From Candidatus Anaeroferrophillus wilburensis (GTDB lineage: Bacteria > Desulfobacterota > Anaeroferrophillalia > Anaeroferrophillales > Anaeroferrophillaceae): a DNA stretch of 64,000 nucleotides. The notes under the pieces are model-generated. The model was not told where the DNA came from. It saw only the letters and a list, made by a program, of their open reading frames with translations, and did no database searches. The stretch spans positions 1 to 64,000 of the forward strand of contig JAFGSY010000044.1 in assembly GCA_016934315.1 (NCBI GenBank). The letters are read 5' to 3'. The first letter of the stretch is position 1. Each line of letters begins with the position of its first letter. The position numbers were made by a program, and so were the translations under genes. Shown here in pieces: positions 23,022 through 24,637 of the stretch.

Positions 23022-23051
23022 TTGACAAAAGTCCAGCCGATTTGCTATATC
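23022..23051 (+). promoter_or_regulatory. Sigma-70 type promoter for the parA-like operon
   Basis: A perfect -35 TTGACA (23022-23027) is followed, 18 nt later, by TATATC (23046-23051) preceded by TGC, an extended -10. Predicted transcription start is near 23058, about 32 nt before the TTG start codon. Confidence 0.7.
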
Positions 23052-23089
23052 GTCTCAGTTTCTTCAATCCTATCTGATTAAAACAGCCT

Positions 23090-23836
23090 TTGAGGAAAAT
23101 AGCCTGCCAAAATTTGAAGGGTGGTACAGGAAAGACCACTACGGTGGTCAATCTTGCCCATTATCTGGCCCAGCAGGGGCGGAAGGTTCTGGTTGTCGAC
23201 CTTGATGCCCAGGGCAGTGTGGGGGTAAGCCTTGGCGTCGAGGCTGAACATGGCCTCTATGAGCTGCTCATTGATAACTGTCCATTAGCCGATTGCGTTA
23301 TCGAAGCCCGGGAGAATCTCTACTGTCTTCTCTCAGATCAGTCGGTGGCAGCCTGTGAAACCATTTTGGTGGCCAAGACCCGCAGGGAAGAAATCCTGAG
23401 CCGTGGCTTGTCCCAGGTTGCAGAGGTGCTGCCCGGGGTGGAGGTGGTGTTGCTGGACTGTTCACCTTCCCTTTCTATTCTCAGTCAGAATGCCCTGGTG
23501 TATGCCGATGAGCTGATTATCCCGGTCAGTATGGATTTCCTGGCACTTGTCGGAGCCAACCATGTCTTTGATAACCTGGGGATGATTGAGGAGTATTTCC
23601 ATAAAAAACTGAAAATATTAGGTATTGTTCCGACGTTTTTTGATAAGCGGGTCAATATGAGTAAGGAAGTGCTGGCTGCTTTGCGGGAGCAGTATGGTTC
23701 TCTGGTTATGTCGCCGGTACGTGTTGATACGAAATTGAAACAGGCATCGAGTGCCCGCCAGACAATCTTTGAGTTCCATGAGAAGAGTCGGGCAGCTTTC
23801 GATTACCTGCAGGTTGGTGAGGAGTTGTTCCCATGA
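23090..23836 (+). CDS. Orphan ParA-family ATPase
   Basis: The 248-residue product has a deviant Walker A motif KGGTGKTTT (residues 10-18) with the signature lysine, the A' motif VLVVDLDAQGS (33-43), and Walker B in VVLLDCSPS (Asp123). It is thus a ParA/Soj-type dimerising ATPase that binds DNA or membrane in its ATP state. No ParB gene is present. The only plausible start is TTG at 23090, with no clear Shine-Dalgarno. The next gene overlaps by 4 nt and encodes a membrane protein, so the pair probably works together, for instance in positioning a cargo. The cargo is unknown. Confidence 0.88.
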   Translation: MRKIACQNLKGGTGKTTTVVNLAHYLAQQGRKVLVVDLDAQGSVGVSLGVEAEHGLYELLIDNCPLADCVIEARENLYCLLSDQSVAACETILVAKTRREEILSRGLSQVAEVLPGVEVVLLDCSPSLSILSQNALVYADELIIPVSMDFLALVGANHVFDNLGMIEEYFHKKLKILGIVPTFFDKRVNMSKEVLAALREQYGSLVMSPVRVDTKLKQASSARQTIFEFHEKSRAAFDYLQVGEELFP

Positions 23837-24576
23837 GTGCAACCAAACGCCGGAAACCGGCAGCTGGGACAGGCAAGAGGAAAAAGGCCTTGGCCGAGGT
23901 CCCTGAACGGGCTCCGGTAGCTAGACAGAAAATGGCCGCTTTTTTTGACTCTGAAACCCGGGAGGGAGATATGATGGCTGGAAAAACCAAAGATAGTACA
24001 CCGATTCCTGAGACTGAAAAACATCTGGCAAAAGTTGCGGTAAAAGTGGATGTGAAGAACCTGCCCGCTGAGCCCCCCAAGGCAGCGGCAGCCAAAGAAC
24101 CGCTGTCAGCAGTAAAACCGTCCCCTGGGAAAGCGGGGGCCAAAGATAATCGGCAAGAGAGTGTAAACAAAAACGATTCAGCGAAAGGTGATGCGAAGAT
24201 GTCAGGAAAAACACAGGGAAGCTGTCAACGTAATGATGGTGGATCAAATATGGTGGGTTTTGTGGCCTTGTTTGCGGCGATTGCCGCTTTGGCATTGGTG
24301 TGGTTTTACGCCTCAACCGCAACCGGCTCCCCCTCGGTGCTCAATGATCTGCAGAAGAGCAAGGTTGAGCTGGTGGAGAAGATTGATGCGCTTGATGCCA
24401 AGGTAAGCGCGTTGGATGCCAAGTTTGTTGCCGCTGAAAAGGCAAAACTGGTCAAATCGGTGAATGACTCTCTGGAAGCCATTAATGCTCTGGCTGCCAA
24501 TGCTGATCCTAAAACTGCTGAGCTGCTGAAAAAGATGCAGGTGGAGATGCAAAAATCACTTGTGGAGCTGAAATAA
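23833..24576 (+). CDS. Single-pass membrane protein, putative partner of the ParA-like ATPase
   Basis: I do not recognise a family. The 247-residue product has a strongly basic N-terminus (residues 4-18, KRRKPAAGTGKRKK), a long Ala/Pro/Lys-rich disordered cytoplasmic region to about 138, one transmembrane helix (about 140-160, VGFVALFAAIAALALVWFYA), and a C-terminal coiled coil (172-247; IDALDAKVSALDAKF) predicted to lie in the periplasm. Basic N-terminal peptides of ParB-type partners stimulate ParA ATPases, so the layout fits a membrane-anchored ParA partner; this is inference. It overlaps the ATPase gene by 4 nt, and a terminator follows. Confidence 0.8.
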   Translation: MSATKRRKPAAGTGKRKKALAEVPERAPVARQKMAAFFDSETREGDMMAGKTKDSTPIPETEKHLAKVAVKVDVKNLPAEPPKAAAAKEPLSAVKPSPGKAGAKDNRQESVNKNDSAKGDAKMSGKTQGSCQRNDGGSNMVGFVALFAAIAALALVWFYASTATGSPSVLNDLQKSKVELVEKIDALDAKVSALDAKFVAAEKAKLVKSVNDSLEAINALAANADPKTAELLKKMQVEMQKSLVELK

Positions 24577-24603
24577 TAGTTTAGAGTTGTTTCTGATGCT
24601 CAT

Positions 24604-24637
24604 AGAGGGCGGCGCTGATAGTGCCGCCCTCTTTTTC
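24604..24637 (+). terminator. Rho-independent terminator after the parA-like operon
   Basis: Stem GAGGGCGGC (24605-24613) pairs with GCCGCCCTC (24623-24631), extended by one A-T pair, with a 9-nt loop and a T-rich tail (TTTTTCTT). Confidence 0.9.

Follow-up and report, generated by a model that had tools for sequence, protein, structure and literature searches.

An orphan ParA-type ATPase and its membrane-anchored partner in Candidatus Anaeroferrophillus wilburensis, a candidate positioning system for membrane cargo

ParA/MinD ATPases have extremely diverse partners, which as a rule act through an N-terminus that is disordered and positively charged (PMC10241942). The McdAB system of the carboxysome and the PpfA–TlpT system of a chemotaxis cluster position protein cargo rather than DNA (PMC10241942, PMC7333895). 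A partition protein can also be made from alternative in-frame starts, as with IncC1 and IncC2 of plasmid RK2 (PMC2666795). The ParA positioning systems compared here move DNA or cytoplasmic assemblies. The locus described below pairs an orphan ParA with a predicted membrane protein, and its best reading, with a probability of roughly 0.55, is a ParA-type positioning system dedicated to membrane cargo through this membrane-anchored partner.

The locus is found in Candidatus Anaeroferrophillus wilburensis (GCA_016934315.1, contig JAFGSY010000044.1). The whole stretch analyzed, forward-strand positions 1–64,000 of the contig (64,000 nt), is called the window, and all features given here are on its + strand. 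The unit consists of two genes, one encoding a ParA-type ATPase (23090–23836) and the other a single-pass membrane protein (23833–24576), which overlap by the ATGA at 23833–23836. It is preceded by a predicted promoter (23022–23051) with TTGACA at 23022–23027, an 18-nt spacer, and an extended -10 element of the form TG-C-TATATC, read as TGCTATATC at 23043–23051. It closes with an intrinsic terminator (24604–24637), in which a 13-pair stem at 24604–24632 is followed by a T tract. An earlier note made from the sequence had described promoter, ATPase, overlapping membrane-protein gene, and terminator as a single unit, and each element was found in the place given for it.

A strict promoter scan of the locus returned nothing, under a rule that demands a second hexamer ending in T. 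TTGACA and GATTTGCTATA are unchanged in all six sequences of the window's family, one of two families of the pair, amid flanking intergenic DNA that has drifted. As an indication of a promoter, such invariant cores in drifting DNA outweigh a consensus match. The ParA gene starts with TTG and has no obvious Shine–Dalgarno sequence, features common to the window's family, and ParA may possibly be under leader-level control there. Between the -10 element and the ParA start (23052–23089), a GTTTCTT block is invariant in the six sequences of this family. Sister-family ParA genes have GGAGG upstream and mostly start with GTG.

The first gene encodes an orphan ParA/Soj-type ATPase of 248 aa with a KGGTGKTT P-loop, an assignment based on Pfam family AAA_31 (5e-43), the predicted fold, and a phylogenetic tree. 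It falls below the equivalog cut-off of every NCBIfam match among those listed. The AlphaFold model (pTM 0.87) is closest to Soj structures among PDB folds, with a TM score of about 0.85 to 2bej, and it also matches ParA-ATP and McdA structures. The deviant Walker A motif with its signature lysine, the Walker A' Asp, and the Soj fold mark the protein as a Walker A cytoskeletal ATPase. Judged by eye, the protein ends in the last helix of the domain (234–246) with no extra tail of the MinD type. In the alignment across the order, the P-loop lysines K10 and K15 do not vary, nor do D39 and R234, and every sequence has a basic residue at position 215. By our reading of an alignment with Soj, the basic position 215 and R234 correspond to R189 and R218 of Bacillus subtilis Soj, and the conservation of these two basic positions would be in line with a presumed non-specific DNA binding. 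One genus (L010, L012, L013) has KGGTAKTT in place of KGGTGKTT.

In the tree, the window ParA groups with its relatives in a single clade (support 100/100), which has a long stem and is distinct from Soj. The nearest neighbor of the clade is L033 (G051, support 88/83), a ParA-like gene with an atypical ParB-like protein encoded next to it. The genome's own Soj, with an adjacent ParB, is on another contig (G000:C38) and is 31% identical to the window ParA. The earlier note had asked whether the ATPase sits beside a true ParB elsewhere in the genome; the Soj–ParB found is a separate ATPase. A duplicate Soj with a degenerate ParB was also considered and ruled out, because no ParB profile matches the partner and the ATPase falls in a clade of its own.

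The distribution of the pair was searched in 59 genomes, including 21 relatives from the same order, and in 395 genomes sampled from the phylum. A ParA of this clade is present in 19 of the 21 relatives at 67–76% identity. The two relatives without it are 61% (G020) and 78% (G017) complete, and in G017 the 3' end of the partner gene is found at a contig end. When the 395 genomes were searched with the ParA, an E-value of 1e-50 was reached only by members of this order. The best matches outside the order are 35–38% identical, and those with neighbors read are mostly Soj beside Spo0J. The partner gene directly follows the ParA gene, with the ATGA overlap, in 17/17 relatives where the contig continues, and two further ParA genes stop at contig ends. 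The pairing is thus exclusive and conserved. The co-occurrence across Desulfobacterota on which the earlier note had made its proposal depend is borne out within one order and is confined to it, rather than being phylum-wide.

The statement that the locus has no ParB and no parS-like repeat also stands: all 17 readable relatives have the membrane partner as the next gene, the window holds no parS-like site at three or fewer mismatches, and no repeats were found in the locus. With neither a ParB neighbor nor a parS, the pair is by these tests not a ParABS system. The gene upstream of the pair usually encodes a response regulator or a sensor, and in the window's family it encodes an HD-GYP response regulator; downstream there is a convergent class IV aminotransferase gene in both families. 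A plasmid or mobile remnant is ruled out by this shared placement of the pair between signaling genes and the aminotransferase gene, in keeping with the earlier view that there is no plasmid context. On three contigs (G010:C10, G011:C109, G014:C221), an MCP gene is about 9 kb away from a different ParA-like gene (24–25% identity), which perhaps encodes a chemosensory-cluster ATPase.

The partner (23833–24576) is a protein of 247 aa that matches no Pfam or NCBIfam family. Its best Pfam match is DUF948 at E = 0.008, with 16.7 bits of the 37.2 needed; there is no NCBIfam match, and the best PDB match (E 0.62) is not significant. The partner family that the earlier note did not recognize therefore corresponds to no described family in these three databases. 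The N-terminus is basic, with a net charge of +8 in 32 residues (23833–23928), it stays net positive in the relatives, and it is the part presumed to contact ParA. It is followed by a conserved KMAAFF motif (23929–23946), predicted to form a short helix within a disordered region. The hydropathy maximum at residue 140 marks a single, family-conserved transmembrane helix at residues 140–160 (24250–24312). Beyond it are predicted periplasmic, coiled-coil-like helices at residues 167–246 (24331–24570, pLDDT about 80–88), a block conserved in the window's family. AlphaFold gave disorder, a short helix at 31–38, a helix at 138–163, and helices at 167–223 and 226–246; this model comes from a six-sequence alignment with a low pTM of 0.26, and its secondary structure alone was used. 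Sequence and model agree with the earlier description of a basic N-terminus, a disordered region, a transmembrane helix at 140–160, and C-terminal helices. That description overlooked the KMAAFF motif, the probable internal start considered below, and the repeats of the sister family.

Partners are barely alignable between the window's family and the sister family (L015–L028), whereas per-column conservation of ParA across the order is about 84%. What the two families share is the N-terminal region and a membrane helix. The 31–51 residues before KMAAFF carry a net charge of +4 to +13 in 17/17 partners with a readable N-terminus, KMAAFF is found in every partner covering that region, and the transmembrane helix lies 51–168 residues after it in partners of both families. 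Because this N-terminus is common to both families alongside the shared ParA, it is likely the part that binds ParA and hence cytoplasmic. Past the membrane helix the families differ. The window's family has its conserved helical block, and the sister family has a basic tail of charge +5 to +34 in which SFxKAPxPFW occurs two or three times, with an acidic linker in most members. The basic tail and acidic linker leave more than one topology possible in the sister family. When the genomes were scanned with the APxPFW pattern for a shared ligand, matches outside the partner gene were about as frequent as with the reversed pattern used as a control.

The variable linker of the partner contains a further conserved element. 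A K-G-[EDG]-x-x-M sequence occurs 15–23 residues before the membrane helix in 15/18 partners and is missing in the other three. At the DNA level it reads as in-frame AAAGG[T/C]-N9-ATG, and 11 of the 15 have AAAGGTGA, which is Shine–Dalgarno-like with 7-nt spacing. In the window this probable internal start (24184–24201) has AAAGGTGA at 24184–24191 and ATG, codon 123 of the partner gene, at 24199–24201, with a predicted short form of 125 aa. The Lys codon is AAA in 15/15 and the Gly codon GGT in 14/15. The control was the set of invariant columns of the ParA gene in 13 of the same genomes, where invariant Gly columns keep one codon in at most 10/13 and invariant Lys columns in at most 9/13. Just 3/68 fourfold-type and 3/40 twofold invariant ParA columns are as codon-conserved as the internal site, and the KMAAFF codons vary in the same partner genes. 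These near-invariant third positions point to a constraint at the nucleotide level. The residue after the internal Met is Ser, Thr, or Ala in 14/15, and these residues are common after Met at real translation starts. A short membrane form without the presumed ParA-binding end, made from this start, is given slightly better than even odds.

KG[EDG]xxM could instead be a motif of the peptide, serving for instance for binding or cleavage close to the membrane, and this reading falls somewhat short of an even chance. Conservation does exist at the protein level, and in a shuffle test the site pairs with the anti-Shine–Dalgarno sequence no more strongly than synonymously recoded versions of its peptide do (mean z -0.3, computed with the standard anti-Shine–Dalgarno, which may not be the order's). 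No 16S was found by the Rfam model on this genome or by a 3'-end pattern on the genomes of the order. The codon usage at the site, so unlike that of KMAAFF and of the columns in which ParA has an invariant Gly or Lys, and the Ser, Thr, or Ala that mostly follows Met argue instead for a translation start. Two further in-frame ATGs at codons 47–48 of the window's partner gene (23971–23976) are preceded by GGGAGGGAGAT; they have the strongest predicted anti-Shine–Dalgarno pairing in that gene but are not conserved.

In the positioning system favored here, ParA would dimerize with ATP and then bind the nucleoid non-specifically. The partner would be anchored in the inner membrane, and its basic, disordered N-terminus with the KMAAFF helix would face the cytoplasm, where it would bind ParA-ATP and stimulate ATP hydrolysis. 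The periplasmic part, made of helices in the window's family and of the basic SFxKAPxPFW tail in the sister family, would attach to or cluster with an envelope structure. Through the ParA cycle, that structure would be spread, centered, or polarized from inside the cell. In most species an internal ribosome-binding site would yield a short membrane form without the ParA-binding end, and this form would set the number of ParA contacts per cluster. The conservation pattern of the partner fits such a scheme, with a basic N-terminus and KMAAFF common to both families and tails that differ. A more specific version is put forward tentatively and is clearly less than an even bet: across the order, the partner would be a two-form adaptor for a non-flagellar cargo, in which the long form engages ParA, the short form cannot, and their ratio tunes the spreading or centering of envelope clusters.

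A different role for the same parts would be a tether between nucleoid and membrane, with the partner anchoring ParA-coated DNA, the chromosome itself as the cargo, and the pair acting as a division or segregation helper. The near-universal presence of the ParA in the order, its retention without flagella, and its Soj-type DNA-binding positions would all suit such a tether. There are precedents as well in HubP (transmembrane and polar) and TipN (polar), which cooperate with ParA ATPases (PMC7333895). The tether nonetheless appears unlikely, given that the genome already owns a Soj–ParB and that the locus is without a parS-like site or repeat. It is more doubtful still that this ParA is a stoichiometric regulator, that is, a nucleotide-dependent subunit of an envelope complex like BcsQ in cellulose secretion, with no movement over the nucleoid. 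BcsQ profiles match it (TIGR03371 at 3e-23, PF06564 at 2e-9) and BcsQ structures are among the folds matched, but Soj, ParA-ATP, and McdA are nearer in fold. With 82.6 bits against an equivalog cut-off of 157.85, and no secretion or bcs genes recognized among the neighbors, the ParA does not belong to BcsQ by these tests.

Positioning of flagella or chemoreceptors, the example offered in the earlier note, is very improbable: a flagellar cluster encoding FlhB, FlhA, and an FlhG-like ATPase does lie 29–34 kb downstream in the window, but that FlhG-like ATPase is a separate one, and G010, G011, and G016 keep the ParA of the pair despite missing FlhA and FlhB and having one MCP each. FlhA and FlhB are absent from G010, G011, G016, and G017 (completeness 94, 89, 94, and 78%), each of which has one or no MCP. 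Since the ParA persists without flagellar export genes, the flagellum is not an obligatory cargo. The broader idea of envelope positioning keeps its orphan ParA, its cognate membrane partner, and its distinct layout, and loses the flagellar motor as a required cargo. Type IV pili were tried as cargo and gave no discrimination, as PilT occurs in all the genomes, that of the outgroup among them.

If the positioning reading is true, a dedicated ParA with a membrane-crossing partner would bring nucleoid-guided positioning to the periplasmic face of the membrane in a simple two-gene system. The likely internal start would represent a possible way of tuning such a system. Diverged partners of other orphan ParAs could also be sought by KMAAFF, by a basic N-terminus, and by overlapping genes in this order.

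Compared with Soj/Spo0J ParABS systems, the pair shares the ParA fold and motifs, with Soj structures as the best PDB matches, and the basic N-terminal tail found in ParA partners generally. It differs in having a membrane partner and no ParB or parS, in belonging to a distinct long-stem clade, and in having a Soj–ParB elsewhere in the genome. The earlier claim of a layout distinct from both chromosome partitioning and McdAB is supported. In McdAB and PpfA–TlpT the partners are soluble. These systems resemble the pair in having a dedicated ParA with a cognate partner that acts through its N-terminus (PMC10241942, PMC7333895), and differ in that the partner here is a membrane-spanning protein that probably reaches into the periplasm. 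By sequence and by fold alike, Soj is a closer match to the ParA than McdA is, and the gene context of the pair is not a recognizable BMC locus, so membership in McdAB, judged from the ParA and its context alone, is unlikely. HubP and TipN are polar proteins that interact with ParA-type ATPases, and HubP is likewise transmembrane (PMC7333895). HubP serves three ATPases, whereas a dedicated ParA and its partner share one operon here, and the partner could be assigned to no described family of Pfam or NCBIfam. In the RK2 case it is ParA itself that has two forms, while the two forms proposed here are those of the membrane partner. The partner family, its membrane anchoring, and its probable two-form expression look like the new elements of this system.
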